64,000 bases of DNA from NCBI RefSeq assembly GCF_020782115.1, contig NZ_JAJGMW010000001.1, positions 248,001 through 312,000 on the forward strand. Direction: 5' to 3'. The notes under the pieces are model-generated. The model was given only the letters and a program-made list of their open reading frames with translations. It was not told the DNA's origin and searched no databases. The translations under genes were made by a program, and so were the position numbers. This document shows positions 10,198-64,000 of the stretch, one piece after another. Position 1 is the stretch's first letter, and each line of letters opens with the position of its first letter. Origin of the DNA: Leeuwenhoekiella parthenopeia (lineage in GTDB: Bacteria; Bacteroidota; Bacteroidia; Flavobacteriales; Flavobacteriaceae).

Positions 10198-11331
10198 CTA
10201 AGGCATTGGAGGATTTCCACAATTATAATTTTTGTATTTATTTGTAGTATTACAAATTGATATGAACGAAATGGCCTGGCCTGATTTTGAATCTAAACTT
10301 GAATTAAAATAATCTGCTACATTAATATTTACATTTTTCCAAGTACCCTGTAGAGTGATATTATCATCACAATTTACAATAAAACCCTTGCTGTTATTAT
10401 TACTTGGCCTGAAATAAAGCCCGTCAATATTTATTGTCTTAGTTGCTGTTTGAGAATTATTATTTCTATTTAAACATTGTATTAGCGAAGCTCCATTTCT
10501 ACCGACATCACCAGTTATTAACAAATTTTCTATGGTTAAAGTATTATTACCACTAGTTGGCCCATTGTATCCATATTGAATTGGCATAGCATTTTGGACC
10601 AGATTAATTTCACAATTTCTTACAATTGTAGGAGCATCGCTATAATCACAAATTATATCATCACCTGTTTCAAAATAACAATTCTCAACTAAATCTGCAT
10701 TATGAACACCATCGCTATGATTTCCAAACCCCCCGCGGTCATCAATAAATCGAGAATTTTTAAGGGTCAACCTTGCTCCGGTAGCATAGTTAGCTCTACT
10801 GTGCCAACCTTTGGGATTTATACTGGTTAAATTGTCAATTATAAGATTGGTTCCATTACCACTGCTCAAAAATGCTGAGAATTCTCCGGCAGATACAGGT
10901 ATCAATCCACCAGTGCCCGAATATGCTTGTAGGTTAGTCCCAAAAACTTTCGATGAGAATTTATTCTCTCCTTGGATAATTACATTAGTTCCTGTCGCCA
11001 CATCGAATTGACCTTCAACACGAGTTTGCTTTTTAATAATTATTTTACTTACTGATGGAGGTACAAACCATCTAGTCTCCTGCCCCTGAGACCTATTTGG
11101 AAAATTAATTTTTCCACTAGATGTAAATGTGAGAATTCCGGTATTTGAATCAAAATTAGCGTTTCCTGTATAATTATTAATAAGTTGGTTGGGGCTCTGG
11201 GGAGTTAGAATGAGATTTGAAACCAAACTGTCATCAGAGGTTTCTTTTGAATATAAAGCAGTATCATCCTTATCACAGCTATAGAGAACAAGTAAGCAAA
11301 AAACAAGTGTGATTGATTTAAAATAATCCAT
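10198..11331 (-). CDS. beta-helix lipoprotein, GH28-like candidate polysaccharide-degrading enzyme
   Basis: I chose the ATG at 11331, which gives a 377-residue lipoprotein (MDYFKSITL..., lipobox LYSC). An ATG-less longer reading to 11373 would start inside the proposed promoter box. The body is a right-handed parallel beta-helix with repeated short strands. It carries GNHSDGV and CYFETGDDIICDYS about 15 residues apart, then NAMPIQYGYNG. Paired SDG and GDD Asp motifs are the layout of GH28-clan glycosidases, so hydrolase activity is plausible; a lyase cannot be excluded. It is a clear paralogue of the protein at 50614-51669 (shared GNHSDG, CYFETGDD, NAxPIQ). It is transcribed alone and lies at the left end of the right locus. 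Confidence 0.7.
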   Translation of the reverse strand: MDYFKSITLVFCLLVLYSCDKDDTALYSKETSDDSLVSNLILTPQSPNQLINNYTGNANFDSNTGILTFTSSGKINFPNRSQGQETRWFVPPSVSKIIIKKQTRVEGQFDVATGTNVIIQGENKFSSKVFGTNLQAYSGTGGLIPVSAGEFSAFLSSGNGTNLIIDNLTSINPKGWHSRANYATGARLTLKNSRFIDDRGGFGNHSDGVHNADLVENCYFETGDDIICDYSDAPTIVRNCEINLVQNAMPIQYGYNGPTSGNNTLTIENLLITGDVGRNGASLIQCLNRNNNSQTATKTINIDGLYFRPSNNNSKGFIVNCDDNITLQGTWKNVNINVADYFNSSLDSKSGQAISFISICNTTNKYKNYNCGNPPMP

Positions 11332-11370
11332 AATCAAATATTTTGAGGTTAATATTATATTGAACAGGAT

Positions 11371-11430
11371 CAAAATAAAATAGATTAAATCGAGTTTGTT
11401 TGCTCATCTTACCTAGACCCTTGTTGATTT
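11371..11430 (-). promoter_or_regulatory. candidate operator-promoter of the beta-helix gene at 10198-11331
   Basis: Plus-strand half-sites CTCATCT (11403-11409) and TTGATTT (11424-11430) are 21 bp apart. A -7-like box (CAAAATAA, 11371-11378; minus strand TTATTTTG, one mismatch to TAnnTTTG) lies 24 bp further on. The same 60-bp layout occurs at 19892, 46700 and 51709. This is the weakest of the four. Confidence 0.4.
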
Positions 11431-11597
11431 GATTAAAATCAATAGAGGAATAATATGTTTAGACATATACAAAACAGCTAGTAATAAGCTTAATAGTATA
11501 TATGAAAATAGTAAGTCTTATTATTAGTTAAACCAATTGAGGTAATTATAGCAGCCGCTTTCTAGTTAAAAGTTCCAGATAATTTAAAATCCGATAT

Positions 11598-12578
11598 TTA
11601 ATGTTTTAGAGTAAGGAAGTTTCCACTATCTTCCAAATCGAAGATTCTGGTGCGCTCTAAATTATTACCATTTGGCTGATGAAGAACCAATTTTAAATCT
11701 CCTTGGAAGGTCTTGAAAATCATTCCATGACCTCCGTTTTCATCAAAGATAAGTGGTTCTATCTGCTTCCAGGGTCCCTTTATGGAACCGGAAATAGAGG
11801 CAGCCTGTCCTAAAGCATAACCATTTTTACCAAAACTTGACCAAATCATCAGAAGCGTATTCTTTTTTGTCTTGTAAATAAAGCACCCGTCAGTAACATA
11901 ACCTCCTATTGTTTGATCAGATTTACGCATAAATCGTTCAACCCAATTCGCATCTGTCGCTTTAAATAAGGTTTTAGGATTTCCTTTCGCAGAAGATAGG
12001 TCGTCTTTAAGTCGAACAAGTTCTACGGTTCCTGTTCCAATTTGGGCCCACTCATGGCAGAAAATCATATATGGAACATCATGCTCAACCCAAAATGTCC
12101 CATCAAGACTCATCCAATCTTTAGGTGTTGCACTTCTCTTTCCAAAAGATCTAAAAGGCCCGAATGGGCTTTTAGATTTTAATATTTGGGTCCATCGTCT
12201 TGGCTGCTTTTCCCCTTGTTTGGTATTATCTATTTTTTCATGAGAAGTAAGAGTCACAAACATATAATATTGACCTCGATAAAAATGAACTTCCGGAGCC
12301 CAAATCTGTAAATCTTCACGAGGGTAATCTTCGGCTGAAAATACTGTCTTAGGACCTTCCCAACTCGTTAGGTTTTTGCTAGTATAAACTTCAACTCCTT
12401 TTATACTATCATTATTAGATAAGCGGTTTCCGGTCTGTACGTAAAGATAGTAGGTACTTGAATTAGTATCCGGTAAAATAAATGGATCTCTAACCCGAAT
12501 ATTATTTAAGTTCTGTTGACTAAAACCAAACAAACTCATAAAAAAAAAGGCAAATAAGTTTAAAATCCTAAGTGACAT
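11598..12578 (-). CDS. GH43-type glycosidase, secreted
   Basis: This 326-residue single-domain enzyme has a signal peptide (MSLRILNLFAFFFMSLFGFSQ). It shows the GH43 five-bladed propeller pattern: VRDPFIL with the base Asp (about 29), IWAPEVHFYRGQYYMF (about 92), SLDGTFWVEHDVPYMI with the pKa-modulating Asp, and the likely acid Glu in FCHEWAQ. Family members are alpha-L-arabinofuranosidases, beta-xylosidases or galactanases; specificity cannot be read here. Its start codon lies inside the 3' end of the hybrid regulator gene (11-bp overlap), so the two are translationally coupled. It is the last gene of the sulfatase-GH27-regulator operon. Confidence 0.85.
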   Translation of the reverse strand: MSLRILNLFAFFFMSLFGFSQQNLNNIRVRDPFILPDTNSSTYYLYVQTGNRLSNNDSIKGVEVYTSKNLTSWEGPKTVFSAEDYPREDLQIWAPEVHFYRGQYYMFVTLTSHEKIDNTKQGEKQPRRWTQILKSKSPFGPFRSFGKRSATPKDWMSLDGTFWVEHDVPYMIFCHEWAQIGTGTVELVRLKDDLSSAKGNPKTLFKATDANWVERFMRKSDQTIGGYVTDGCFIYKTKKNTLLMIWSSFGKNGYALGQAASISGSIKGPWKQIEPLIFDENGGHGMIFKTFQGDLKLVLHQPNGNNLERTRIFDLEDSGNFLTLKH

Positions 12579-15500
12579 CGTGCCCCTTTTTAGTGCTTAC
12601 ATCATTCACAAATTGTGAGGGAGTTTTACCATATTCTTTTTTGAATATTTTAGTGAAATAGGATTGACTTTGGATACCTACTCTATACATAGCTTCAGCA
12701 ACTGTCACCTCCTCTGTAAGTAAAATTTCCGCTGCCTTTTTAACACGTATCTCTCGAATGAGCTCAACGGCTGTTTTATTGGTTGTAGCTTTAATTTTGT
12801 TGTAAATATTTGTTCTACTCATATTCAGTAATTCTGATAGGGAAGAAACATCAAAATTATTATCCTCTAAATTTTCAATTATAGTTTGGGTTAACTCTTG
12901 GACGAATTCATTTTCCTTTGATTTTTCAGTCATTGAATACGACTCTACAAACGTATCTTTAACAATACTTTCCTTTAGACTCAAACGGTTTGATAGAATA
13001 TTTTGAACATTAATTTTAAGCACATCAATACTAAAAGGTTTTGATATATATAGATCAGCCTTAGCTTGTGCTGCTTCTAGCTGTTTTTCAATAGATAGGT
13101 TTGAGGTGAGTAAGATAAAAGGTATATTCTCATATTTCTTAGTTGTTTTTACCCATTTACAAAGTTCAATTCCGTCGGTTACTGGCATAACTATATCACT
13201 TATCACAACATTAATAATATTGTTTTCTATAATTTGTATAGCTTGCTTACCATTTTCAGCCTCAAAAACTGTAAAATCATCCTGAAGATTTTCCTTAATA
13301 AAGAACCTAAGCTCTTTATTATCTTCCACAACAAGTAAAGAACCTTTTCCATAAGAATTCCCAATATTGTGGATGAAATTTGGGGTGTCGTAAATAGGAC
13401 TTAGCGATGATTTGGATAATTGTACCTGTGGCTCTTGTAATTCTTCAGCTTCTAAATGTTTAATGAAAGGAATACCAATATAAAAACAAGTTCCTACTTG
13501 CTCCGAGCTTTTTACAATTAGCTCCCCGTTTTGTAACATTACTAGACTTTTAACAAGCGAAAGACCAACTCCTGAACCTTGAGATTCTAATGAATCTATC
13601 TTGTCATTATGAAAAAAGCGGTCAAAAATATGATTCATTTCCTTTTCTGATATTCCCTTTCCAGTGTCATAAATTTTTAACCAAATCAACTCTGAATTTA
13701 AGTTGTTATACGATAAACGTGTAGCATTTTTAAGGTTTTTTTCTTGATCCAGATTTTTTAGAATGTGAATTCCCACTTCTCCCCCATCATCCGTAAACTT
13801 AAAAGCATTGCCTAGTATATTGTACGCTATTTTTTCAACTACTGTCCGGTCAAACCAAAAGTTCTCCAGGTTAATAGTTTCTTTAAATATCAACTTGATA
13901 TTTCGCAAAGCGGCAAACTCTTCAAAGCTTTCATAGACATCCTTAAGTACCTTATTGAGATTTTCTTTTTTGAATTGTAACTTGTACGCTTTAGTCTCTA
14001 TCTTCTGAAAATCCATTAATTCATTTATGAGACGTAGCATCCGCTTAGTATTTTTGAGCATATGACTATAATATCTGTCTCTTTTACGATTTCCTACATT
14101 GCCTTTCAGTAATTCTTCAAGCGGATTTATAATTAATGTTAGTGGTGTTCTAAATTCGTGAGAAATATTTGTAAAAAACTGAAGACGCATTTTATGGATT
14201 TTATCTTCCTGTTTTTTCTCCAAAATAGAAATGTCGTAAGCTCTTTTAAGCAAAATCCATCTTGAAGCTAGATATAGCATTAAAATACCAATTAAGACAT
14301 AAAATACCTTCGCATACACTGAAAGCCAAAATGGTGGAGTAATGACCAATGATAAGTTTTTAGTCTTATTAGACCAGTAATTATCTGTGTTTGTAGCGTT
14401 TACTTTAAAACTATATTTTCCATAAGGAAGGTTTGCATAAGTTGCCTGTGGTGCGCTATTATTTATATATATCCAATCTTCGTCATATCCTTCAAGCTTA
14501 TAACGAAATGTAGTATTCTTTGCATTGGCATAATTCAAACTACTGAAGTAAAAAGTAAAATTATTTTGGTCGCTTTGAAGTTTTAATTCATTGATATTGT
14601 TAATCTGTTGATCTAAAATATTGGTATCGTCTCCCGGTCTTATCAAATCATTATTTACAGCAATACCCGATAATACAATTGAAGCTTGAGTTGTATCTGT
14701 TTTTATTTCATTTGGAAGAAAATACGTGAGTCCGTGTGTTCCTCCAAAGTAAAGTTTTCCGCTTGCCCCGTGATGACTGGCTCCAATTTTAAAACTATTA
14801 CCTTGTAGACCATCCTCAACAGTAAATGCAGATATATTTTTTGTTTTAATATCGTAACGCGTAATACCTCGACCTCCAACCCATAATACTTTATTATCAT
14901 CTAAGATCAAGGATTCAACATCCTGACTAATTAAATTTGACTTATTGTTAATTCTCAAAGCTTTGTAACCTAAATCATTTTTTTGATTTAGGATGAGCTT
15001 ATTAAGTCCCCCTCCTATCGTGCCGACATATAAAATACTATCGTTGAGCCGCTCTACTGGCCAAACATAATTAGATGATAGTGATGTACTATCTCCATTA
15101 GTTCCCTTGTAATGTATTATGGAATCAATTTCACCATTAAAATCTAAATAGATGTGATTCAATCCTTCTACTGTTGAGACCAATATTTCACGTCTTAGGG
15201 AATCGGTTTTAATTTCAGTAATTTCATTAGAAGTTAATCCAAAAGGTTCTCCTAATTGAGTCTTATAAATTTTATCGATATGTAAATTTTCGTCAGTTAG
15301 GGTAATTTTGTTTAGACCATTAAACCAAGATCCTGCCCAAATAGCTCCAAATTTATCCTCGGCAATTGAAAAAATTGTATTGTCAGATAATCGATGATGC
15401 TCAATTGGTGAAAGTGCATTTAAATGACGTGTTCTTCCTGATCGCGTATCTATAATACTTATTCCTTTTGTAGTACCCACCCATAATCTTTTTTTAGAAT

Positions 15501-16815
15501 CATATAATAATGACCGTATACTATTACTTATAATTGAATTCGGATCATTTTTACTATGCTGAAAAGATTTAAAACTATTTTTATCAAAATCATAATATAC
15601 TAACCCATCTCGTTCAGAACCCAACCAAATATTACCTTTTTCGTCCTCTGTAACAGCCCTGATGTAATTTGGAGCATAATTATTTTCTCTAGAAAATGGA
15701 ATATTGGTTAATAAATTAAATCGCTTTTGATTAAGATTGATGAGATTGACCCCAGAACCAAAGAAAGTTATCCAAATATTGCCAGTGCCATCAGCGTAAA
15801 AGCTATTTATACGCTTTCCCGAAAGGCGGCTGCTCTCATTACCACGATCATCGGAATAAAAATTATAAGTTATTTTATTATTTTGTTTACTGACCAGTTC
15901 AATCAATCCATAATCAGTACCTATCCATACCTTCCCATTCTTAGAACTATAAATAGCACTAATATGAAAATTTTCATCTGAGTCAAGATCAAAGGCTCTA
16001 CGCACTTCACGGTCAAAACCATCAATGGGATTGACTCTTATTTTACCATCGTCTAAGCTATAAAGATCAGCTTTTAATAGTGTGTTAGTTCCACCTAACC
16101 ACATTTCAGTTTTTGAGTTGGTAAAAACAGTAGTAAAATCCTGAAAGATTTTTCCATCTAGATTTTGAACCTCAATTGGTTTGATCCTTATTTGTCTTCC
16201 CTGATCTTCAGTTTCAATTTTGAAAAGACCTCTTGGAGTAGTTAACCAAATATTACCTAGAAAGTCCTGTGATAGACTGTTTACGATACCGAGAAAATCT
16301 GGCACATTGATTTTCTTTTCGTTTAATACAATTCGATTTTGACTAAAATTAAATTTAAAAGCATAAACTTTTTTATCGATGATGACATAAACTAAATCCT
16401 TGACAATAAGAATATTTCCTACTTTAGTTCTTGTTATATCTTCTTCATTTATCAAATTCCAGCTAATATTTTCAAACTGCTCAGTACGCGTATTGAATGC
16501 AGCCAGACCTCCTTGAGTAGCGAGAATCAAATGTTCATTAATACGTGCTAAGTCGCTAATTCGATTAATATAAGCCTTAGATAAAGTATTTACGTTATTA
16601 GTGAAAAGACGCAAATTGTATCCGTCATACTTATTAAGACCTCCGTAAGTGCCTATCCATATAAAACCGTTTTCATCCTTAATTACAGAAGTTGCATCAG
16701 TATGTGCCAAACCTTCGTTCACTCCAATTTTCTTGAATTTAAATAGGTAATCCTGCCCCTGAACGGAATTAAGAAATAACCAAAAAACAGATAGAACAAT
16801 GAGCTTTCTAGGCAT
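12568..16815 (-). CDS. hybrid two-component system sensor/regulator (HTCS)
   Basis: 1415 residues carry an entire signalling pathway. After a signal peptide come two seven-bladed propellers built of Reg_prop repeats (about 25-740; GFIWIGTYGGLNKYDGYN, GKVWIGTDYGLIEL), a Y_Y_Y domain (about 755-830), and one membrane helix (about 838-862). Then follow a HisKA domain (NISHEFRTPLTL, His about 886), a HATPase (NAFKFTDDGG, DTGKGIS, GSGVGLSLV), a receiver domain (VVISDIVMP, Asp about 1208; SKPF) and a C-terminal AraC helix-turn-helix (about 1310-1405). HTCS proteins sense oligosaccharides in the periplasm and activate their PUL. It sits 19 bp after the GH27 gene and overlaps the next GH43 gene. It is the best candidate regulator for the right locus. 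Confidence 0.97.
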   Translation of the reverse strand: MPRKLIVLSVFWLFLNSVQGQDYLFKFKKIGVNEGLAHTDATSVIKDENGFIWIGTYGGLNKYDGYNLRLFTNNVNTLSKAYINRISDLARINEHLILATQGGLAAFNTRTEQFENISWNLINEEDITRTKVGNILIVKDLVYVIIDKKVYAFKFNFSQNRIVLNEKKINVPDFLGIVNSLSQDFLGNIWLTTPRGLFKIETEDQGRQIRIKPIEVQNLDGKIFQDFTTVFTNSKTEMWLGGTNTLLKADLYSLDDGKIRVNPIDGFDREVRRAFDLDSDENFHISAIYSSKNGKVWIGTDYGLIELVSKQNNKITYNFYSDDRGNESSRLSGKRINSFYADGTGNIWITFFGSGVNLINLNQKRFNLLTNIPFSRENNYAPNYIRAVTEDEKGNIWLGSERDGLVYYDFDKNSFKSFQHSKNDPNSIISNSIRSLLYDSKKRLWVGTTKGISIIDTRSGRTRHLNALSPIEHHRLSDNTIFSIAEDKFGAIWAGSWFNGLNKITLTDENLHIDKIYKTQLGEPFGLTSNEITEIKTDSLRREILVSTVEGLNHIYLDFNGEIDSIIHYKGTNGDSTSLSSNYVWPVERLNDSILYVGTIGGGLNKLILNQKNDLGYKALRINNKSNLISQDVESLILDDNKVLWVGGRGITRYDIKTKNISAFTVEDGLQGNSFKIGASHHGASGKLYFGGTHGLTYFLPNEIKTDTTQASIVLSGIAVNNDLIRPGDDTNILDQQINNINELKLQSDQNNFTFYFSSLNYANAKNTTFRYKLEGYDEDWIYINNSAPQATYANLPYGKYSFKVNATNTDNYWSNKTKNLSLVITPPFWLSVYAKVFYVLIGILMLYLASRWILLKRAYDISILEKKQEDKIHKMRLQFFTNISHEFRTPLTLIINPLEELLKGNVGNRKRDRYYSHMLKNTKRMLRLINELMDFQKIETKAYKLQFKKENLNKVLKDVYESFEEFAALRNIKLIFKETINLENFWFDRTVVEKIAYNILGNAFKFTDDGGEVGIHILKNLDQEKNLKNATRLSYNNLNSELIWLKIYDTGKGISEKEMNHIFDRFFHNDKIDSLESQGSGVGLSLVKSLVMLQNGELIVKSSEQVGTCFYIGIPFIKHLEAEELQEPQVQLSKSSLSPIYDTPNFIHNIGNSYGKGSLLVVEDNKELRFFIKENLQDDFTVFEAENGKQAIQIIENNIINVVISDIVMPVTDGIELCKWVKTTKKYENIPFILLTSNLSIEKQLEAAQAKADLYISKPFSIDVLKINVQNILSNRLSLKESIVKDTFVESYSMTEKSKENEFVQELTQTIIENLEDNNFDVSSLSELLNMSRTNIYNKIKATTNKTAVELIREIRVKKAAEILLTEEVTVAEAMYRVGIQSQSYFTKIFKKEYGKTPSQFVNDVSTKKGHDVT

Positions 16816-16834: not shown

Positions 16835-18283
16835 TTACAATTTAGTTAATCTAAATATTTTTCCACCGTGAGGAGCAATTTTAGCACTTAATACTTGATT
16901 TACATTTTCTAAATATTTCCCTTCCCATAAGTCTTTTACTTTAAAAGTACCTCTAAGAGATTCATCTTCGAGATTAAAAGAAATAGTTTCAGGTTGATCC
17001 GCCAGATTGAATAGAGCTATAAATCTATCTCCATTAGCTGGGTCAGTTGCAATCCAAATTGCTTCGTTATTATGTTTGATTACTTGACGATTGTCTACAC
17101 TATGCTGATTTACATAAATGACATCTCTGTTCTTAAGAAATTTCATTGTGCTTTCGGGAGTTGAAAGCAGATCACCTCCCATCATAAGAGGTGACTTTGC
17201 TATACTCCATAAAGTCATCAAAGTATAATGTTCCGGTTCTGTAAAATTAGACATGCGCTCTTTACCGTGGGGTCTATCATTTAGTGATAATTTACCAATA
17301 GGTAACATATCACCATCTGGCCAATGACCCGGGCCTATAAATGGGGACCAAGCATTTAGTAAATCAAAATTGTGCTCTAAAGATTCCCAATTGTCCCAAA
17401 AATCTGCTGAAATTCGCCACATATTTGCATTTTCAATAAGGTGAGGCGCTCTTGAAACGGGTGCTTCGCCGCAAGAAAGGCTTAAAATCATTGGTCTTCC
17501 AGACTTCTCTATTGCTTTATGAATCATTTCAATCTCCTCATCGTGATAAGGAGGGAACATAGTATCATCTGCTTTTATGAAATCAACTCCCCACTCAGCA
17601 TAAAGTTTAAAAAGTGAGTCATAATATTCCTGAGCCCCTTCTTTAGAACCGTCTACACCATACATATGATTGCACCAGTTACAAGTATCAAAAGGTTCTG
17701 CTATATCCTTAGCAGTCATATTTGTACCCATTATGGGAGTAGCCTGAAAAGCGGCAACGCGATGAATCCCACGCATAATATGAATTCCAAATTTCAATCC
17801 TTTATTGTGAACATAATCAGCTATAGGTTTGAATCCTTTGCCCCCTGCAGCAGAAGGAAAGCGCTCAACAGCAGGAATCAACCTTCCAAACTCATCCATA
17901 TTAGTGTATTCCGGATATAATGGGCTACCATCATCATTATAACGAATATTAGGGTGACCTTTTCGCCTTGGTGTATCCCAGTTTCCGGGATTTGGGTGCC
18001 ACCAGATATAGTCAATAACAGCATACTCCCATCCATACTCTTTAAGGTTTTCAGCCATATAATCAACGGTAGCCTTAAATTCTTCTTCGTTTATCCGACA
18101 ATCGTATGCATCAAAGCTATTCCAACCCATAGGAGGCGTCGCTGCCAATTCAAATTCAGTATCTACAGATATATTTTTTTCTACAGATTTACTCGTATTT
18201 GCCGTCTGTGACGAAATTTCTGAATCTACACAAGATGTAAGTACGCCTAAGCAAAGAATTATTATAAATTTAATTTTATTCAT
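16835..18283 (-). CDS. GH27-like alpha-galactosidase family lipoprotein
   Basis: 482 residues with a lipobox (LTSC, Cys18), then a GH27 (beta/alpha)8 barrel. Landmarks are TPPMGWNSFDAYDC (about 50), YAVIDYIWW, GLKFGIHIMRG, GVDFIKADDTM with the expected nucleophile Asp (about 237), and WRISADFWDNW with the expected acid/base Asp (about 293). A short beta-sandwich follows. GH27 enzymes are mostly alpha-galactosidases, with some beta-L-arabinopyranosidases and alpha-N-acetylgalactosaminidases. This protein and the one at 26596-27978 are close paralogues with different anchoring: this one is a lipoprotein, the other a cleaved signal-peptide protein. It lies between the sulfatase (18-bp gap) and the HTCS gene (19-bp gap) in one operon. 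Confidence 0.9.
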   Translation of the reverse strand: MNKIKFIIILCLGVLTSCVDSEISSQTANTSKSVEKNISVDTEFELAATPPMGWNSFDAYDCRINEEEFKATVDYMAENLKEYGWEYAVIDYIWWHPNPGNWDTPRRKGHPNIRYNDDGSPLYPEYTNMDEFGRLIPAVERFPSAAGGKGFKPIADYVHNKGLKFGIHIMRGIHRVAAFQATPIMGTNMTAKDIAEPFDTCNWCNHMYGVDGSKEGAQEYYDSLFKLYAEWGVDFIKADDTMFPPYHDEEIEMIHKAIEKSGRPMILSLSCGEAPVSRAPHLIENANMWRISADFWDNWESLEHNFDLLNAWSPFIGPGHWPDGDMLPIGKLSLNDRPHGKERMSNFTEPEHYTLMTLWSIAKSPLMMGGDLLSTPESTMKFLKNRDVIYVNQHSVDNRQVIKHNNEAIWIATDPANGDRFIALFNLADQPETISFNLEDESLRGTFKVKDLWEGKYLENVNQVLSAKIAPHGGKIFRLTKL

Positions 18284-38595: not shown

Positions 38596-38603
38596 ATGTA
38601 ACT

Positions 38604-41672: not shown

Positions 41673-41709
41673 TTCTTTGAATTATGAGTTAGTTAATAAG
41701 GATTCCGAT

Positions 41710-43461: not shown

Positions 43462-43484
43462 ATGTCTTCTTAGCTTTTCGTTAA

Positions 43485-46673: not shown

Positions 46674-46699
46674 TAGTTGATTGTTTTTAATTTGTTCAC

Positions 46700-46760
46700 C
46701 AAACATAGCTTGTTAACATAATATTAGACTTACTCAATTGTTTCTTTGTTTTGTTCATTT
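46700..46760 (-). promoter_or_regulatory. candidate operator-promoter of the double SusCD operon
   Basis: Plus-strand half-sites CTCAATT (46733-46739) and TTCATTT (46754-46760) are 21 bp apart. The -7-type box CAAACATA (46700-46707; minus strand TATGTTTG, full match) lies 25 bp from the nearer one. Leader length to the ATG at 46673 would be about 20 nt. The same layout is found at three other promoters of the right locus. Confidence 0.55.
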
Positions 46761-56239: not shown

Positions 56240-57673
56240 TTATGAATTATTTTTTCTTGTCAGTTCGCTTAATTTATTTCTCAAATCGGTTCGAACGTTT
56301 TTGTAAACAGGATTGTTAATTTCATTGTGCCATTCTAACGGATCTACCTCGTGATCATACAATTCTTCTGATCCATCCTCATATTTTATGTATCTGTATT
56401 TTTCAGTTCTTATCGTATTTCGCCCTTCACCCATCTGGGTGAGACTGGCTCGATCCCACTTAAGTTCAGGATTTATTAAAAGCGGCACAAAGCTATTTCC
56501 TTCATTTTTTTGATTTTCGGGTAAACCTGTAAGTTCTAAAAGTGTAGGATAAAGATCCAAAAGATTTATTGGGCGATTGCTTCGACTTTCAGGTTTAATC
56601 ATTCCTGGTACTTTAAAAATGAAGGGAACTCTGCAAGCCTCTTCCCAAAGTGTAAATTTTTTATAACGTAACTTTTCTCCTAGATGCCAGCCGTGATCAC
56701 CCCAGAGGACGACTATGGTATTGTCTGCATATTTGCTTTTGGCCAAAGCATCAAGAATAACACCCACACAATAATCTGCATAATTTATACTTGCCAGATA
56801 AGCTTGTACGGCCTCTTTCTGTTTACTGTATTTTTCAATTGCCGTATATTCTTTAGTAGGACTAAAGTTTTCTCTGGTGTCATCGAGATCACTTTCGAGA
56901 ACTTCAGGAAGTATCATATTCTCAACAGGAAATTTATCATAAAACTCCTTAGGTACTTTCCATTCCAGATGCGGTCTGAAAATACCAACAGCCATAAAAA
57001 ATGGTTTGTCAAAACCTTCTTGGAGCTGTTCTGCGGCCCACTGGGCGTTGAGGTAATCTGGGGTTTCCTCCGTTTTTCCAGTGGTGGGTGCCCAATCCAT
57101 ATTATCGCTCATTTCCCCCCGTGGAATTCCATTGTCCAATAAACCTTTTTTGCTTTGCGTAGCACCATAATTCCCAGAAACTGGTGACCACTCATCCCAT
57201 GTATGTTTGCCTGTTGCAGGTGTATGATATATTTTTCCTCGAGAAAGTGTATGATATCCGTATTTGGATAGATACTGGGGCAACATAAGACTATTGTTAA
57301 TTAATGGAACATCAAATACTTTATCTCCATTTTGAAAAATTCCCGTTGTAGAAGGTTTGTAACCAGACATAATAGCCGCTCGCGAGGGATTACAAACTGA
57401 AGCTGCGCAATACGCAAGGTCAAATACCATCGACTCCTTAGCCAGCTTATCCATGTTTGGAGTTAATGTCTGTGGATGTCCACCCATAAAACCAGTCCAA
57501 TCATTAAGATCATCAACTGCAATCATCAAAATGTTATACTTTAAGTTTTTAGAATTTTGACTTTCTGTTTTAAGAGCTGAGGTACTGAAATCCTGTTTTG
57601 AGGAATTACTTTTACAGGCAACCATAAGTATACATAAAGTTGAGTATATAAGCCAGTTAATAATATGTTTCAT
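56240..57673 (-). CDS. sulfatase (S1_7-like, CNPSR), lipoprotein
   Basis: 477 residues with lipobox MVAC (Cys20). NILMIAVDDLNDWTGFMGGH (about 47) is the iduronate-2-sulfatase-like metal motif. ASVCNPSRAAIMSG contains the formylglycine site (Cys94). VVLWGDHGWHLGEKLRYKKFTLWEEACRVPFIFKVPG matches the late motifs of S1_7 enzymes. The C-terminal EELYDHEVDPLEWHNEINNP is also typical. It would remove sulfate from the polymer or oligomers. It lies between the large beta-helix gene (198 bp) and a GH43 lipoprotein gene (107 bp). It shares its subfamily with the sulfatase at 61762, so the substrate probably carries sulfate at more than one position. Confidence 0.93.
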   Translation of the reverse strand: MKHIINWLIYSTLCILMVACKSNSSKQDFSTSALKTESQNSKNLKYNILMIAVDDLNDWTGFMGGHPQTLTPNMDKLAKESMVFDLAYCAASVCNPSRAAIMSGYKPSTTGIFQNGDKVFDVPLINNSLMLPQYLSKYGYHTLSRGKIYHTPATGKHTWDEWSPVSGNYGATQSKKGLLDNGIPRGEMSDNMDWAPTTGKTEETPDYLNAQWAAEQLQEGFDKPFFMAVGIFRPHLEWKVPKEFYDKFPVENMILPEVLESDLDDTRENFSPTKEYTAIEKYSKQKEAVQAYLASINYADYCVGVILDALAKSKYADNTIVVLWGDHGWHLGEKLRYKKFTLWEEACRVPFIFKVPGMIKPESRSNRPINLLDLYPTLLELTGLPENQKNEGNSFVPLLINPELKWDRASLTQMGEGRNTIRTEKYRYIKYEDGSEELYDHEVDPLEWHNEINNPVYKNVRTDLRNKLSELTRKNNS

Positions 57674-57780: not shown

Positions 57781-58944
57781 TTAATTTATTTTGACTTTTT
57801 GAAGAGTATAAGTCGGTCCGTCTACTTTAATCTCTCCATCTTTACTTATTGTGATAGGATCAATAACCAAAAAAGGGTTTTCACCAGGTTTGATACCATG
57901 ACAAGATAACCAACGTCTACCATCAGGCCCGATAAAAATCTCATTGTGCCCTACCTGATTGAACGGGTTATCGGGATTGCCAGTATAAGTCATCCCATTG
58001 TTTTCACAGGCCTCTTTACTTTGAGCACCATATATTGGATTGGAACTTGATTTGACCCAAGGTCCGGTTATTTTCCTTGCTTTTGCAATCCCTATCTCGT
58101 AACCACGCGTCCAGCTCGAATAAAACAAATAATAGGTATCTCCTTCTTTTATCACATAGGCACCTTCTATTCCGATGGAATCCCAATCATAGTATTTCTC
58201 CACCTTGTCTATAGGCCTGCCATTGTAGCCGGGAGTTTTTTCGATATTTCCTTCCCCATCGTATTTGTAATCAACTTTTCCTGGAAGAATTGCCGTAACA
58301 GGATCTGTAATAAGTTTGCCCTTTTGCAGATCTACCTGTGCAAACTGGATTCCCTTTTCGCGCCCTTGGTTCCAAAAGGCCCAAACACTGCCATTTTCTT
58401 CCTGAAAAAAAGTAAGGTCATTTCCGCGAGTTAATGGTTCAGATTCTGTAACTACAGTATATGGCCCCTCTATATTTTCAGATACAGCATATCCATTATG
58501 TTGCCCTACATATCCTGCCTGATCATTGTTGCAGTTAAAAAGTGCATAATATTTATTGTTGATTTTTTGAATCTCTGGCGCCCAAAAACGTCTGTGGTAC
58601 CACTTTGTTGAGTCCCCTGCTTCTACAATATATTTGACAAGCTGCCAATCGGTAAGGTTTTTTGACCTGTACAGAACTACCCCTTTATTAAAGTTGCCGT
58701 TTTCTTCTTCGCGAGGCCAGTGCGGGTAAGATGTACCTGTCAAATACCAATTATCTCCATCCCGGAGTACCTGACAATCACGTAAGCCCATAGAATCAAT
58801 ACCTGATCTAATAGGATTCTGGTATGTAAAGTAAGAAGCCTCTGCAGCGACATTTTTTGGTTCTCCGCTGTTCTTATCAAACTTGCACGAGATAAATATT
58901 ACTACAAAAAATAAAAAAGTTAGTATCTTAAAATTTCGATTCAT
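57781..58944 (-). CDS. GH43-type glycosidase, lipoprotein
   Basis: 387 residues with lipobox IFISC (Cys20). Propeller motifs: NPIRSGIDSMGLRDCQVLRDGDNWYLTGTSYP (first Asp), RRFWAPEIQKINNKYYALFN, GNDLTFFQEENGSVWAFW (second Asp), and IEGAYVIKEGDTYYLFYSSW (acid Glu). This order resembles GH43 and GH117-type exo-enzymes. As an outer-membrane lipoprotein it would trim oligosaccharides near the sulfatases. It is 6 bp downstream of the sulfatase at 58951, so the two are co-translated; desulfation and exo-cleavage may be linked steps. Confidence 0.85.
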   Translation of the reverse strand: MNRNFKILTFLFFVVIFISCKFDKNSGEPKNVAAEASYFTYQNPIRSGIDSMGLRDCQVLRDGDNWYLTGTSYPHWPREEENGNFNKGVVLYRSKNLTDWQLVKYIVEAGDSTKWYHRRFWAPEIQKINNKYYALFNCNNDQAGYVGQHNGYAVSENIEGPYTVVTESEPLTRGNDLTFFQEENGSVWAFWNQGREKGIQFAQVDLQKGKLITDPVTAILPGKVDYKYDGEGNIEKTPGYNGRPIDKVEKYYDWDSIGIEGAYVIKEGDTYYLFYSSWTRGYEIGIAKARKITGPWVKSSSNPIYGAQSKEACENNGMTYTGNPDNPFNQVGHNEIFIGPDGRRWLSCHGIKPGENPFLVIDPITISKDGEIKVDGPTYTLQKVKIN

Positions 58945-58950: not shown

Positions 58951-60537
58951 TCAATTGGTTTTATTACGTTCCCAAGGCATTAATTTCATATTATTGGGAC
59001 GGTAGCGTTTTATAATCTGATCAGTTTCTTCGGCTAAATGCTGTTTCTTTTTAAAATTCTGTGGGGTGTCTCCTGGATTCCAATACCATTGACTGGGTTG
59101 ATGAATGGTATCTAGTATTTCCTTAAAGTCTGCTGCTATCTTAGGATAAATATTGGCCAGATTAACTTGTGCCCTTTGATCTTCTTCTAACAAAAATAAC
59201 TGAACGGGCTGTTCAGGATGATCACGGTAAGCATAAAAACCACCCTTTCGGGCCGCCTGCTGATTTTGTTTATAGAAATACATTAAACGATCTTTTGGGA
59301 TACTATTTCTATCGCCTTCAAGTAAGGGTAATAAGCTAAAGCCATCAACGTCTAAATTTCCCTGATAACCCGATACATCTTTAAATGTGGGAAATAAGTC
59401 AAGTAACCAAACGGGTTCACTTATTATTTCGGCATAGTCCTGCTGCGGCATATGTATGCTAAAAGGTACGCGCATACCTCCCTCAAGTGCACTGAATTTG
59501 CCACCGTGAAAAGGCCCTTTATTATTTAAAAATTCATCATCAGGCCAAATTGACTCTCCATTTTCACTGCGATAGGAATTGTGCATAGCATATCCATTGT
59601 CTGAAGCAAAAATGATCATCGTATTATCATAAAGACCTTCTGCCTTTAACTTTTTAATAAGTTTTCCTACTGATATATCCAGTCGCTGCACCATCGCTCC
59701 CCAACTTTTCGAGAGTAAAGACATGTCGTCCCGATTTTTTAATTGCCGTAAATCATCAACTATTACAGGCCCGTGAGGTAAATTTGTTGTAAAAAACAGG
59801 AAAAAAGGGTTGTCTTTTTCCCGTTCTATAAATTCCGAAACCTTAGTGTCGATCAGGTCAGGGGTGTAAGCAGCCGTCTTCATATCCATTAGCGCCAGTT
59901 CTCCATTTTCTTTGTAAAACTGAACGTTTTTTAAAGATTCCGGATTACGCTCTAATTCATAAAGCAACTGCATGTTGAGTGATTCATTTTGAGGAAATTC
60001 TATTTCCTTATTATTTTCATATAAGTTCAAGGGAAAATAAGAATGTGCTTCGTAGTGCGTTAAATATCCATAATGATAATTAAATCCCTGATTGAGGGGG
60101 TTCCCAGCTGTATCCTTATAACCAAGACCCCATTTCCCGATCACACCAGTCGTATAACCTGCTTCCTGAAGCATTTTTCCGAAAGTATATGTATTGTCTG
60201 GCAGAGGTTCAAAACCCCGCGCACTACTGTTAAGCCTAATTGGTGCATGCCCTACATGTAATCCTGTAAGCATGGTTGCTCTTGATGGTGCACACTCAGG
60301 TGCACCTGTATAAGCTTGGGTAAAGCGTGTTGAATTACTCAGTAATTCGTCAAGATTAGGTGTTTTATAATTCCTTTGTCCATAGGCACTAATATCTTTA
60401 TAACTTAAATCATCTGAAAAGATGAAAACGATATTAGGTTTATTATTACCCAAAGGCTTAGCGACTTGATTGGATTGCTGGTTGGTATCACAGCCCATTA
60501 GTAATAACAGGAAACTTGATAGAGATACAAACTTCAT
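58951..60537 (-). CDS. sulfatase (S1_16-like, CAPSR), lipoprotein
   Basis: I start at 60537 (MKFVSLSSFLLLLMGC...), which gives a proper lipoprotein signal (Cys16); longer readings to 60573 or 60603 add residues with no signal character. This gives 528 residues. NIVFIFSDDLSYKDISAYG is the metal motif, APECAPSRATMLTGLHVGHAPIR the formylglycine motif (Cys82), and FASDNGYAMHNSYRSENGE a further ligand motif; GGMRVPFSIHMP follows. It resembles the sulfatase at 18302-19792 in the tract around the active site (TGxHxGH.xIR/VR.N), suggesting the same subfamily with different detail. It lies between two GH43 genes. Confidence 0.92.
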   Translation of the reverse strand: MKFVSLSSFLLLLMGCDTNQQSNQVAKPLGNNKPNIVFIFSDDLSYKDISAYGQRNYKTPNLDELLSNSTRFTQAYTGAPECAPSRATMLTGLHVGHAPIRLNSSARGFEPLPDNTYTFGKMLQEAGYTTGVIGKWGLGYKDTAGNPLNQGFNYHYGYLTHYEAHSYFPLNLYENNKEIEFPQNESLNMQLLYELERNPESLKNVQFYKENGELALMDMKTAAYTPDLIDTKVSEFIEREKDNPFFLFFTTNLPHGPVIVDDLRQLKNRDDMSLLSKSWGAMVQRLDISVGKLIKKLKAEGLYDNTMIIFASDNGYAMHNSYRSENGESIWPDDEFLNNKGPFHGGKFSALEGGMRVPFSIHMPQQDYAEIISEPVWLLDLFPTFKDVSGYQGNLDVDGFSLLPLLEGDRNSIPKDRLMYFYKQNQQAARKGGFYAYRDHPEQPVQLFLLEEDQRAQVNLANIYPKIAADFKEILDTIHQPSQWYWNPGDTPQNFKKKQHLAEETDQIIKRYRPNNMKLMPWERNKTN

Positions 60538-60646
60538 TGAAGTTAATCGGAAAACTTTATTTAATAAATCCATTTTAAATTTTAAAAAAATTGATGTCAT
60601 CAACTACATTAGTTAATGGAGTATTCTATGCCCAACCTATCAACCT

Positions 60647-61765
60647 CTATTCAAATTGAAAATTCTGGACCTCTTCATTACCAGGGTTCTGATATGCGGG
60701 ATCTAAGGCTTTGATTTTAACCGCATCATTTTCAATCTTAATCTCCATAGGTACCAGGGTTAATCCCTGCTTATTTATGGTAAAGGCGGTATTGCTCATA
60801 TCCTTATTTTCAACTTCATGGGGTTTTAAGGTAGGCTCATTGGCATTGTAAAAGGCCGTGCACCACCAGTTGCCGTTTTTGTCTTTAAATGGGGTTCCAT
60901 GCCCTAAGAATCGTCCAGCAAATTGTCGCTTACCATATGGGCCATTCACTTTATCTGAAACGGCATAGTAGAGATTATAGGTTCCCTTACGCATTTCATC
61001 GGTGCTCCAGGCAGTTCCAAAAAGAATATATTTATTTTGAACTTTGATAATATATGCCCCCTCGTGGCCCATCTTTCGGTCTGATGGCCCTATGTTGATT
61101 TCCTCCCCATCAAAACCACTAAAGTCTTTTTTCAAGCGCTGTATTGCTGCCATTTTGTAAACCAGATATGGTTGATCATCATCCATAAAAATACTAGGAT
61201 CGTGTCGATGACCAAGTTCAGCCCCAAATGGTTCAATATAGGGTGGAGCTAATTCATCGCTTTCAGTAATCATTAGATTAGCCATTCCCATATTACTGGT
61301 ATTTACAATTATCCATTTCCCATTAATAAAATGAATTTCTGGTGCCCATATCATAGCTTGCCGATCATTGTCCATTGCTTTTTTAAGAAGGGCTTTTCCA
61401 AATTCTGAATCATTTGCTCTCCAACGTACACCCAATTTTTCCCAATTAGTTAAATCCTGGCTACGCCAAAACTCTATTGAAGCTATACTATCAGGAAAAG
61501 ATTCAGTCATTCTGGTTGCAGAAAGATAGTAGTTACCGTCTGGGCATAAAGCGATGAATGGATCACGCATCCAGGTATCTTTCATAAGATGTATAGCACG
61601 GTCATGCTTATTGATCATTTGAATCAGGCTGTCTGAAGGGGACTGCCTGATACTATTTTCTTTTGATTTTAACCCTTCTCTATAGTTACTGTCTTGACCG
61701 TTTTTACAAGCTATTACAGCGGTACAAAAAACTGATACAAATAAGATTTTTAGGATGTTTTTCAT
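60647..61765 (-). CDS. GH43-type glycosidase, lipoprotein
   Basis: 372 residues with lipobox VIAC (Cys20). GH43 motifs are well kept: WMRDPFIALCPDGNYYLSATRM (base Asp), AMIWAPEIHFINGKWIIVNTS, GHRHDPSIFMDDDQPYLVYKM (second Asp), and GHEGAYIIKVQNKYILFGTAWS (acid Glu). It is translationally coupled to the sulfatase at 61762 (4-bp ATGA overlap), and the downstream sulfatase gene follows after 109 bp. The sequence differs from the GH43_12-like pair, so this is another specificity group. The natural sugar is not evident. Confidence 0.87.
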   Translation of the reverse strand: MKNILKILFVSVFCTAVIACKNGQDSNYREGLKSKENSIRQSPSDSLIQMINKHDRAIHLMKDTWMRDPFIALCPDGNYYLSATRMTESFPDSIASIEFWRSQDLTNWEKLGVRWRANDSEFGKALLKKAMDNDRQAMIWAPEIHFINGKWIIVNTSNMGMANLMITESDELAPPYIEPFGAELGHRHDPSIFMDDDQPYLVYKMAAIQRLKKDFSGFDGEEINIGPSDRKMGHEGAYIIKVQNKYILFGTAWSTDEMRKGTYNLYYAVSDKVNGPYGKRQFAGRFLGHGTPFKDKNGNWWCTAFYNANEPTLKPHEVENKDMSNTAFTINKQGLTLVPMEIKIENDAVKIKALDPAYQNPGNEEVQNFQFE

Positions 61766-63249
61766 ATCTGAACTAGGTATTTGGTATTTTTTGGGTTTGA
61801 TTTATATTCTGATTCCCGGGTATTTATCATTCTATTGTTCTCCTCTGTTCTTCCCCCAAGCGAGCGAGCGAATTCTTTTGGGATTTCCTTTTTAAGCCTC
61901 ATAATGATTTTTTGATTATTTGGGTCATTTGTAACATTGTCCCACTCAAATGGATCAACCCGATGGTCATAGAGCTCGCTGCTACCATCTGGATATTGAA
62001 TGTAACGATAGTGCCCGTCACCAACAGAAACAAAACCCTCTCCGTATGTCATTATACTGGGACTGCTCTTTAGTTTGGGGTTTTCAATATATTTTAAAAG
62101 ACTTTCGCCATCAATTTTATGTTCTGGCTTCCTTAGCCTGCAATAGTCTATTAAGGTAGGGTATATGTCCATCAGACTTACCGTTTGGTCAAGTTCCATG
62201 CTTTTACCATTAGGTAGGCGTATCAATAGTGGGGAATATGCTGAAAGTTCCCACAATGTCCCTTTTTGCCATTTTTCTTTTTCGCCCATATGGTAACCAT
62301 TGTCTGACGCGACGATTACGATGGTATTTTTAGAATAAGCAGAAGCATCAAGCGCATCGATCACTCGTCCTACAGACCAGTCTGCAAACGATGTCGTTGC
62401 GAGATAACCTCGTATCATCTGTTTAAAAGTTTCGTGTCGCCTTTCCAAGCTTTCGCCAAAAAGATCAAGCGAATCTACCAAGGCGCGTCCTATTAGTGGG
62501 ATATCTTCCAGATCACCTTCTTTATAACTTACCGGCAAATGAACATCAGAAGCATCGTAAAGATCAAAAAATCGCTTAGGTGCAGTATAGGGTGTGTGCT
62601 GGCGCCAGAAACCCAAGTAACAGAAAAATGCCGAGTCATGGGCTTGTTGAAGAAACTCAATTGCCGCATCACTGTTATTTACATCAGGAAAGTCAGAATC
62701 GGGTCCTTCCCAAGCTTTAACAGATTGAAATTGGCTCTTGCCTCCGACCCAAAATCCCTCTTCAGCAAAAGGTCCAAAACCACCTTTATAAATAGGACGG
62801 TTGTCAAACATGGCTTCTTCCCTACCGTCTTGCAATTTAGAATGAAAGATCTTGCCACGGCCGAAAGTTTCATATCCATTTCGTTTGAAACATTCTGGCA
62901 TGGACTCTACTTTTGCCAAGATATCAGAACGTCTCCAAGGGTCTGAACCGTTGTAATATACCCCTGTTTTGTGAGGTGCCACACCGCTGAAGAAAGCTGC
63001 TCGAGAAGGCACGCATACCGGAGATGCACAGACCGCATTTGTGAAATTGACAGACTGATCCCTTAATTTATCCAGATATGGAGTCCTAACCTCTTTATAG
63101 AGATCCTTTGGCCCCCAACCATTCATATCATCTACATTAATAAAAAGGACATTGGGATGCTGCCAGCTTTCTTGTTCTGCCACATTTTTTTTACAGCCAG
63201 CCATAATCAAGATCAATAAAAGGCTTAAATTTTTTAAATGAGTCTTCAT
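61762..63249 (-). CDS. sulfatase (S1_7-like, CVPSR), lipoprotein
   Basis: 495 residues with lipobox MAGC (Cys19). NVLFINVDDMNGWGPKDL (about 33) and SPVCVPSRAAFFSGVAPH with the formylglycine Cys79 define an S1 sulfatase. IVIVASDNGYHMGEKEKWQKGTLWELSAYSPLLIRLP and SSELYDHRVDPFEWDNVTNDP match the S1_7 group seen in the protein at 56240. It is in a tight operon: 11 bp after the sulfatase at the window edge and overlapping the GH43 gene by 4 bp. It would remove a specific sulfate ester before or after exo-cleavage. Confidence 0.93.
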   Translation of the reverse strand: MKTHLKNLSLLLILIMAGCKKNVAEQESWQHPNVLFINVDDMNGWGPKDLYKEVRTPYLDKLRDQSVNFTNAVCASPVCVPSRAAFFSGVAPHKTGVYYNGSDPWRRSDILAKVESMPECFKRNGYETFGRGKIFHSKLQDGREEAMFDNRPIYKGGFGPFAEEGFWVGGKSQFQSVKAWEGPDSDFPDVNNSDAAIEFLQQAHDSAFFCYLGFWRQHTPYTAPKRFFDLYDASDVHLPVSYKEGDLEDIPLIGRALVDSLDLFGESLERRHETFKQMIRGYLATTSFADWSVGRVIDALDASAYSKNTIVIVASDNGYHMGEKEKWQKGTLWELSAYSPLLIRLPNGKSMELDQTVSLMDIYPTLIDYCRLRKPEHKIDGESLLKYIENPKLKSSPSIMTYGEGFVSVGDGHYRYIQYPDGSSELYDHRVDPFEWDNVTNDPNNQKIIMRLKKEIPKEFARSLGGRTEENNRMINTRESEYKSNPKNTKYLVQI

Positions 63250-63260
63250 GTTCTAACTGT

Positions 63261-64000
63261 TTAGTTCTTGCCAGACAAACTCCCCATATTTATACTATCG
63301 GGAACTTTTTTTAAATTATTGCCCCTCCCATCAAGAAAATACGACTCGATGTCTGAGATCAGTATCCAAGGTGGAGCTGGCTTTTTGCCGGCAAGAAAAT
63401 CGTCGTACAATCCGCGCCATTTTGATAAATCATATTGTTCATAAAGATGCCCGTAACCTTCGATCCTCAGATCACCCTCTTCACTTAATTTTTTCATCAT
63501 AAATGATTTCAGGTTTTGCATTTGCGAAGAAAATTCTTCATTTAATGCCAGATTATTAATGCAATAAGGATCGCTAGTAATGTCGTATAATTCTTCTAAA
63601 GGTCTCTTGCCAAAATTTGTCATCCAGTAATTTTTGTCATTTCCCTTTCGTCTTAAATTAAGTAAAAGACTCTTTGTAGGGCTGCTGTCGACATTAAGAT
63701 AGCCGGTCTCCGGGTTTCCTGATGGCCAGCGATTGGGTTCAAAATTTTTTATATAAAGCATATTATCTTTATAAATACCACGTATGGGGTAACCCCAATC
63801 GTTGGGTCTTCCGGTATCGTGACGTTCTTTACCAACCAGTACAAAGTCACGAGAGGCTTGCACCTCCTCTGGTATTTCGGCAGTGAGCAAGGGCAAGAAA
63901 CTCTTACCCGGCGAGGGATGCAAACCAGACTCTTTAAATGGGAGCTCTACCGCATCAAAGATGGTTGGTGTGAGATCAATAAAGCTGACATAATTCTTTA
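63261..64000 (-). CDS. sulfatase, C-terminal part (5' end beyond the window)
   Basis: The reading frame is open to the right edge; upstream of LHPSPGKSF it reads NYVSFIDLTPTIFDAVELPF, typical of the region where S1 sulfatases have their fourth metal/substrate loop. RHDTGRPNDWGYPIRGIYKDNMLYIKNF, ELYDITSDPYCINNLA and a C-terminal extension of about 60 residues follow. The formylglycine site lies outside the window, so its subfamily cannot be told; the layout (SLVD/SFIDLTPT, ELYDxxxDP) supports a sulfatase. It precedes the S1_7-like gene by 11 bp. A TTG inside the frame at 63921-63923 is not the real start. Confidence 0.85.
   Translation of the reverse strand, partial: KNYVSFIDLTPTIFDAVELPFKESGLHPSPGKSFLPLLTAEIPEEVQASRDFVLVGKERHDTGRPNDWGYPIRGIYKDNMLYIKNFEPNRWPSGNPETGYLNVDSSPTKSLLLNLRRKGNDKNYWMTNFGKRPLEELYDITSDPYCINNLALNEEFSSQMQNLKSFMMKKLSEEGDLRIEGYGHLYEQYDLSKWRGLYDDFLAGKKPAPPWILISDIESYFLDGRGNNLKKVPDSINMGSLSGKN

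Follow-up and report, generated by a model that had tools for sequence, protein, structure and literature searches.

The 64,000-nucleotide stretch of the Leeuwenhoekiella parthenopeia genome analysed here (the window, C1:248001-312000 of a 4.42 Mb genome) carries a sulfatase-rich polysaccharide utilization locus (PUL) that we believe probably serves the breakdown of a sulfated pyranosic beta-L-arabinan, most likely a xylogalactoarabinan of the Cladophora type. The locus spans window positions 10198-64898 and holds 32 genes, the last of which extends 898 bases beyond the window. Two adjacent susC-susD pairs (36886-46706) lie amid glycoside hydrolase (GH) genes, the arrangement that defines a PUL. 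The genes on which the argument turns are listed below by window coordinates, where percentages give the identity to counterparts in compared loci of other genomes.

16835..18283, minus strand: GH27a with Tyr at the specificity position, a predicted beta-L-arabinopyranosidase; 62-66% in five loci and 48% in G544
26596..27978, plus strand: GH27b, likewise a predicted beta-L-arabinopyranosidase with the specificity-position Tyr; 59-62% in four loci
18302..19792, minus strand: S1a, an S1_20-like sulfatase predicted to act as an exo 3-O-sulfatase on a galacto-configured sugar; 54-55% in four loci and 53% in L046, where it is partial
56240..57673, minus strand: S1c, a sulfatase with 6hhm and iduronate-2-sulfatase as relatives; 51-60% in four loci
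10198..11373, minus strand: beta-helix A, of GH49/28-like type and 38% identical to its paralogue beta-helix B; Asp 221, Asp-Asp 238-239, spacing 17
19994..21376, minus strand: GH49-like beta-helix, candidate beta-L-arabinopyranan hydrolase; PF00295, PF17433; Asp 268, 287, 288; 44% in L050, 29-30% in three others
50614..51669, minus strand: beta-helix B, GH49/28-like by fold search on a model; Asp 191, 210, 211; 48-54% in three loci
51995..56041, minus strand: GH49/28-like beta-helix with two CBM3 domains (PF00942 x2) and a type IX secretion system (T9SS) sorting domain (PF18962), candidate secreted endo enzyme; Asp 321, 340, 341

The substrate is suggested first of all by the GH27 enzymes. 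Both contain Melibiase domains (PF16499 and PF17801), they are 45% identical to each other, and their conserved Asp residues are invariant in our GH27 alignment (A2). The best PDB match of GH27b is the Geobacillus beta-L-arabinopyranosidase Abp (4nx0, 4.8e-116), while the best alpha-galactosidase reaches 6.9e-35. At the position that governs specificity both proteins have Tyr, compared to Ile67 in Abp and Asp in alpha-galactosidases; over 115 aligned GH27 proteins, some of them duplicated, this residue is Ile in 82, Tyr in 11, Asp in 8, Phe in 6, Leu in 3 and another in 5. Ile67 of Abp has been suggested to clash with galactopyranosides (PMC4598101). Neither GH27a nor GH27b thus has the Asp of GH27 alpha-galactosidases or the Ile of the group VI beta-L-arabinopyranosidases, and we treat the Tyr type as a sister variant of group VI and do not file it within that group. 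In a tree of 114 GH27 proteins each has its own orthogroup (GH27a, n=6, support 0.979; GH27b, n=5, support 0.999). Both enzymes fall on the beta-L-arabinopyranosidase side of the family, a placement that points to a backbone of pyranosic arabinan.

These data bear directly on the possibility that the target is a sulfated galactan with GH27 acting as an alpha-galactosidase. The family name and the presence of a GH2 are in keeping with such a substrate, and alpha-D-Galp does occur in side chains of the Chaetomorpha polymer (PMC9962809). The GH27 residue and clade data contradict it, leading us to reject the alpha-galactosidase role, and GH16, GH82, GH110 and GH127/129 have no Pfam match in the locus; we regard a sulfated galactan as very improbable. 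A previous reading made from the sequence only had proposed a branched sulfated galactan or arabinogalactan, which finds no support here and is probably wrong given that both GH27s fall on the arabinopyranosidase side.

The second line of evidence comes from the sulfatases. Six S1 sulfatases are encoded at 18302, 22603, 56240, 58951, 61762 and 63261, all with formylglycine (FGly) motifs (CAPSR/CSAAR/CNPSR/CAPSR/CVPSR/CAPSR). S1c is closest in the PDB to 6hhm (7.2e-47), presumably an S1_7 ulvan enzyme, and then to iduronate-2-sulfatase (9.5e-41). For S1a the best match is 7ana (1.8e-87), which we take to be BT1622, followed by a chain shared by 7an1, 7oqd and 9thu-9thw (5.7e-83). S1a has the same residues as this chain at its positions His 178, Glu 335 and Arg 354, a count one ahead of His177, Glu334 and Arg353, which we assume to be the substrate-reading residues of BT1636; the three are taken to be the O4/O2-reading trio, an assignment that follows this numbering. 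The shared chain is BT1636 because 9THU-9THW are identified as that enzyme, and compared with 7OQD, in PMC13383068. BT1636 is an S1_20 exo-sulfatase acting on 3-O-sulfo-galactose, in which a His reads the axial O4 and a Glu and an Arg read O2, the latter two being absent from BT1622 (PMC10154612). Being nearest to characterised S1_20 enzymes and having retained the presumed O4-reading His, S1a is regarded as S1_20-like and is predicted to be an exo 3-O-sulfatase on a galacto-configured sugar. Since the rings of beta-L-Arap and alpha-D-Gal share their configuration (PMC7550628), a 3-sulfated L-Arap end would be a natural target.

Sulfatases also accompany this type of GH27 elsewhere. We surveyed 80 GH27 loci among the matches listed and found a sulfatase gene nearby in 4 of 5 Tyr-type loci compared to 3 of 75 others (Fisher p 1.1e-4); the loci are related, unequal in length and not independent, so that the statistic is descriptive. 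One of the three non-Tyr loci with a sulfatase, L115, sits on the same UBA5342 contig.

A different target, a sulfated type II arabinogalactan resembling arabinogalactan proteins (AGP-like), would have the GH27s merely trimming terminal beta-L-Arap from side chains. CpArap27, a GH27 arabinopyranosidase, has been implicated in arabinogalactan use (PMC4598101), and Bacteroides plebeius uses sulfated Codium AGP via PULs with sulfatases, GH2, GH27 and GH43 (PMC8406133). We nevertheless find this substrate unlikely for several reasons: sulfatases are rare at the 75 non-Tyr loci, two conserved GH27 paralogues beside two sulfatases suggest a role on a backbone and not on side chains, and GH16, GH30 and GH105 have no Pfam match in the locus. 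No GH43_24-type galactanase was found among the four of seven GH43s compared with the PDB (GH43c, GH43-C2a, GH43d and GH43e). The entry 3vsf, which we take to be such a galactanase, surfaced once in those comparisons, at 7.2e-4, and was the best match of none.

Third, the locus encodes four beta-helix proteins related to GH49 and GH28 that may cut the backbone. The protein at 19994 has a GH49N domain (PF17433, 22.2 bits for a cut-off of 21.3), and PF00295 (GH28) is also just above its cut-off. It matches the GH49 dextranase 6nzs (5.5e-22) with the TDG and DD Asps aligned, and the combination of a GH49N domain and an Asp triad with a spacing of 19 on a beta-helix places it with GH49. GH28 enzymes are marked by a Gly-His-Gly motif after the Asp pair, where this protein has Glu-Asn-Gly-Ala. 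The remaining three are without a GH28/49 Pfam match and were placed by fold search (50614), by homology to 50614 (10198) and by homology to 19994 (51995, 29% identity over 284 residues). For beta-helix B, a model with a predicted local distance difference test score (pLDDT) of 79.5 gave the GH49 isopullulanase 3wwg as the best Foldseek match (3.2e-6), followed by other GH49 enzymes and then a GH28 xylogalacturonan hydrolase, at modest TM-scores of 0.43-0.56. In beta-helix A the Asps show a spacing of 17, and in the other three proteins of 19. The 51995 protein is probably located outside the cell because it has a T9SS sorting domain. A 4-linked beta-L-arabinopyranan is in effect a polygalacturonan minus C6, and a beta-helix enzyme related to GH28/GH49 would be well suited to cutting it. 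We put forward tentatively, and with more doubt than the substrate itself, the joint proposal that no enzyme system for sulfated pyranosic arabinans was recognised before this one and that its GH49-like beta-helices are endo-beta-L-arabinopyranan hydrolases, an activity named nowhere in the open-access literature searched.

The polymer that best accommodates these enzymes is the xylogalactoarabinan of Cladophora, with a backbone of 4-linked beta-L-Arap, 3-sulfate as the main and 2,3-disulfate as a minor substitution, and beta-D-Xylp or galactose at C2 (PMC5694217). The same backbone has been described in Caulerpa racemosa and Ulva clathrata (PMC7550628). A galacto-type 3-O-sulfatase, arabinopyranosidases and xylosidase-type GH43s (with a GH120 domain in the UBA5342 locus) fit the Cladophora arabinan step by step. 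The walls of Cladophorales contain highly crystalline cellulose and those of Bryopsidales mannan or xylan (PMC7550628), and the CBM3 domains of 51995 fit the former rather than the latter. A green-algal origin of the substrate, already raised as a possibility from the sequence, remains the best fit.

A Codium-type 3-linked beta-L-arabinopyranan sulfated at C2/C4 is made of the identical sugar and anomer (PMC7550628) and would suit the GH27s equally. Its O3 is taken up by the linkage, leaving none for a 3-O-type sulfatase such as S1a; the walls of Codium are of mannan (PMC7550628), to which CBM3 is unsuited, and a largely linear chain would make seven GH43s superfluous. We judge a Codium-type target quite unlikely.

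With a Cladophora-type arabinan as substrate, the locus might work as follows. The secreted CBM3-bearing beta-helix (51995-56041) and the related beta-helices would cut the arabinan backbone, and the tandem SusC2/D2-SusC1/D1 would import the sulfated oligomers. S1c and other sulfatases may take off further sulfate (possibly 2-O), GH43 enzymes would strip xylose and other stubs, and S1a would cleave the 3-sulfate at the non-reducing end, allowing GH27a and GH27b to free L-arabinose unit by unit. The genome encodes an L-arabinose isomerase (AraA), which could channel the released L-arabinose into metabolism.

The gene set is shared with distant Bacteroidota. Using reciprocal best hits with at least 40% identity and at least 60% coverage, the 33 focal genes (the 32 locus genes and the integrase) have 18 counterparts in Draconibacterium sediminis (Marinilabiliales), 20 in the Bacteroidales metagenome-assembled genome (MAG) UBA5342 and 20 in G871, compared to 0 of 68 non-focal C1 genes in each. 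These three loci were picked for holding GH27 relatives, so that the control speaks to which genes are shared, namely the focal ones, and does not make the loci a random sample. Smaller shares are found in L050 (5), G870 (4), L046 (2) and G544 (1). The order SusC2-SusD2-SusC1-SusD1-DUF5627 is kept, and GH27b-S1a-S1c-GH27a are contiguous in Draconibacterium, G870 and G871; in the window GH27a adjoins S1a, with GH27b and S1c located elsewhere. L050, a 21 kb locus of an uncultured Bacteroides-labelled MAG, has GH27a, GH43d, GH43e, GH2 and a GH49-like gene, which hints at transfer. L046 (G433) is labelled Chitinophaga pinensis yet was found in the sample centred on the Draconibacterium family, and the label may be wrong.

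A number of observations weigh against the arabinan interpretation. The enzyme activities are predictions from sequence. The Tyr of GH27a and GH27b differs from the Ile of characterised arabinopyranosidases, no Tyr-type GH27 of known activity was among the enzymes we met, and the aromatic GH27 clade of 18 that encloses both orthogroups is weakly supported (0.60). Two Tyr-type loci, L051 (a 6 kb contig) and G544 (a 20 kb stretch), are without a sulfatase in view, and the Phe-type GH27 relatives of Mucilaginibacter (L047-L049) have none nearby. Gene order is preserved in just two blocks; CBM3 is known only in the window protein 51995, to which the relatives align at 26-30% identity across roughly 0.4 of the length; and GH2, GH43b, DUF5060 and DUF1080 fill no explained role in the proposed pathway. 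Finally, GH27b also matches 3cc1 (3.1e-111), which is deposited as a putative alpha-N-acetylgalactosaminidase and is presumably Bh1870. The Bacillus protein Bh1870 belongs to the same GH27 group as Abp (PMC4598101).

With L051, G544 and Mucilaginibacter as exceptions, the idea that an aromatic GH27 strictly marks sulfation was rejected. It is conceivable that the Mucilaginibacter Phe-type loci act on unsulfated members of this substrate class.

The remaining genes of the locus, together with the recombinase at its left border, are as follows.

8564..9808, minus strand: tyrosine recombinase (PF00589, PF13102) at the left border, probably outside the PUL proper
11598..12578, minus strand: GH43a (PF04616); 41% in UBA5342 and G871, both reciprocal best hits
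12568..16815, minus strand: hybrid two-component system regulator (HTCS) with Reg_prop, Y_Y_Y, HisKA, response regulator and HTH_18; 28-34% in five loci
21373..22407, minus strand: GH43b (PF04616); 36% in L050
22603..24105, plus strand: S1b sulfatase (PF00884), CSAAR motif; sole counterpart 29% in G871
24153..25124, plus strand: DUF4380 protein, mutarotase-like (PF14315); NF052227 at 9.2e-15, far below cut-off
25130..26572, plus strand: GH43c, xylosidase/arabinofuranosidase-like; best PDB match Xsa43E (4e-32); 64% in UBA5342 and G871
28104..28925, minus strand: DUF1080a (PF06439); 54-57% in two loci
28943..30640, minus strand: GH43-C2a (PF04616+PF17851), beta-xylosidase / alpha-L-arabinofuranosidase type; BoGH43B 5.5e-106; 50-54% in two loci
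30785..32593, minus strand: GH2 (PF02837, PF00703, PF02836); 57% in L050
32852..33718, minus strand: DUF1080b (PF06439); 51% in two loci
33725..35686, minus strand: DUF5060 enzyme (PF16586, PF12904); 39-46% in two loci
35817..36884, minus strand: DUF5627 lipoprotein (PF08522, PF18620); 42-44%, directly after SusD1 in three loci
36886..38595, minus strand: SusD1 (PF07980); 45-52% in three loci
38604..41672, minus strand: SusC1, by carboxypeptidase-regulatory domain and BLAST only, 25% to SusC2; 37-41% in three loci, same order
41710..43461, minus strand: SusD2 (PF07980); 40-47% in three loci
43485..46706, minus strand: SusC2 (PF07715, PF00593); 43-45% in three loci
46888..47919, minus strand: Sde182 nucleoside-hydrolase-like protein (PF07632); 51-58% in three loci
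47922..49529, minus strand: GH43-C2b, beta-xylosidase type (PF04616+PF17851); 60-63% in three loci
49526..50605, minus strand: PD40 beta-propeller protein (PF07676); 68-69% in two loci
57781..58944, minus strand: GH43d (PF04616); 62-70% in four loci
58951..60603, minus strand: S1d sulfatase (PF00884); 44-46% in three loci
60647..61765, minus strand: GH43e (PF04616); 49-53% in four loci
61762..63249, minus strand: S1e sulfatase (PF00884); 45% in UBA5342, 52% (partial) in G871
63261..64000, minus strand (full gene C1:311261-312898): S1f sulfatase, runs past the window; PF00884 on the full 545 residues; 45-50% in three loci

The open reading frame (ORF) list and Pfam, run on 36 window proteins, give seven GH43 (PF04616; genes starting at 11598, 21373, 25130, 28943, 47922, 57781 and 60647), two GH27 (Melibiase_2), one GH2, the four beta-helices and the DUF5060 enzyme in addition to the six sulfatases. 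Two DUF1080 proteins, two SusC, two SusD, the DUF5627 lipoprotein, one HTCS and three helper genes (DUF4380, PD40 propeller and Sde182-like) complete the set. The sequence-only reading had listed the sulfatases, GH43, GH27, GH2, beta-helix, DUF5060 and DUF1080 genes, and every item of that inventory is correct. Its description of a PUL rich in sulfatases but lacking the enzymes that mark ulvan, agar, carrageenan or fucoidan loci is likewise borne out: polysaccharide lyases, GH16, GH29/95, GH88/105, GH117 and GH127/129 have no Pfam match among the 36 window proteins, nor do GH82, GH107, GH110 and GH30 among the locus proteins. It had named a classical lyase or carrageenase beyond position 64000 as a finding that would overturn this description. 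The next five genes after the locus encode a C39-peptidase ABC exporter, an HlyD-type protein, an S9 peptidase, a TPR-HTH_18 regulator and an aminotransferase; by Pfam they include neither, nor any other marker of ulvan, carrageenan, agar or fucoidan PULs (lyase, GH105/88, GH16, GH82, GH127/129, GH117, GH29/95/107). NCBIfam matches of ten locus proteins were all far below cut-off and gave no useful name. The DUF5060 enzyme had no PDB match, and its structure model (pLDDT 39.4) was set aside.

The locus was probably acquired by transfer, as we infer from its distribution and surroundings. We searched for GH27b in 60 relatives and in samples of the family, order, phylum and Draconibacterium family; these are draws, and an absence is valid for the genomes searched. 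The 12 congeners yielded no GH27 of the arabinopyranosidase type, five of them giving weak partial matches (at most 46 bits) and seven none; at the specificity position, the two of these five that were read have Asp. The family sample has GH27b matches at E<=1e-60 in 17 of 397 genomes, own included, with Ile in 14 and Ala in 2 of the 16 others. The order sample gives 14 of 395 at E<=1e-150, own included, and all 13 others have Ile. In the phylum sample (23 matches in 395) 20 loci were read, with Tyr in our own and G544, Phe in 8 and Ile in 10. Of 140 genomes of the Draconibacterium family, 50 match, and the four G431 (D. sediminis), G871, G870 and G433 do so at more than 750 bits.

The chromosome in common with congener G009 resumes at C1:313407, 1407 bases past the window end. 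At this site G009 and G002 have another SusC/SusD/HTCS set (named by BLAST only), and G001 has, near the equivalent site, a 189-residue ORF 50% identical to the window integrase. The site, beside the C39-ABC exporter cluster (equivalents in G009, G002 and G001 within L202-L207), resembles a PUL exchange site. The G+C profile is without a sharp border at the locus. No tRNA gene was found in the window or in seven flanking stretches, and a tRNA-borne island was rejected on this ground.

Two neighbouring regions lie outside the focal locus. One holds a separate SusCD set and a large GH43 that has F5/F8 and SprB domains and ends in a T9SS tail; it takes in window positions 440-3658 and 5139-7712 and, for a SusD, C1:246477-248408. 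Further left, C1:175816-238822 (L001-L005) is a second sulfatase-rich region with ten sulfatases, GH2 (two by Pfam), GH35, a BNR_4 protein and CE2/SASA-type esterases. BNR_4 takes in ulvan-lyase and GH145-type propellers.

Sulfated pyranosic arabinans are wall polymers of Cladophora and Chaetomorpha from marine and freshwater habitats (PMC7550628, PMC5694217) and are under study as anticoagulants (PMC9962809). No enzyme system for them is described in the open-access literature searched, among the matches listed, in agreement with the suggestion made from the sequence that the degradation system may be an undescribed one; the available parts of PMC11036162, PMC10233909 and PMC12313589 name none. 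If our interpretation is true, the locus would provide enzymes for sequencing and tailoring sulfated arabinans and would assign a function to Tyr-type GH27 and GH49-like beta-helices. The conserved set and a named isolate that carries it, Draconibacterium sediminis JN14CK-3, make the question directly testable.

Among known systems, PUL13 and PUL5 of B. plebeius are likewise Bacteroidota PULs with sulfatases, GH2, GH27 and GH43, and are induced by a green-algal sulfated glycan. They differ in that PUL13 has two sulfatase genes, PUL5 has GH43_24, GH145 and GH105, and the substrate backbone is a beta-1,3-galactan; the available part of the source mentions no GH49-like proteins (PMC8406133). The S1_20 enzymes BT1636 and BT1622 are the closest solved relatives of S1a, which retains the presumed O4/O2-reading His, Glu and Arg of BT1636, but they come from mucin systems and share about one third of residues with S1a, whose PUL is of the algal type. 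GH49 dextranase and isopullulanase have in common with our proteins the beta-helix, the GH49N domain in 19994 and an Asp triad spaced as in 6nzs, although the match is distant and the locus is without an alpha-glucan enzyme. North Sea flavobacterial PULs have been predicted to target sulfated xylan, sulfated alpha-galactose glycans and arabinan; the main text of that study has 0 mentions of GH27, the alpha-galactose and arabinan PULs being given in its supplement (PMC6298971), and a similar locus may be among these. The GH27 group VI enzymes Geobacillus Abp and Chitinophaga CpArap27 are the nearest solved relatives of GH27b and similarly have the invariant Asps and no Asp at the C6 position (PMC4598101), while the specificity residue is Ile in that group and Tyr in our locus, where sulfatases stand alongside.

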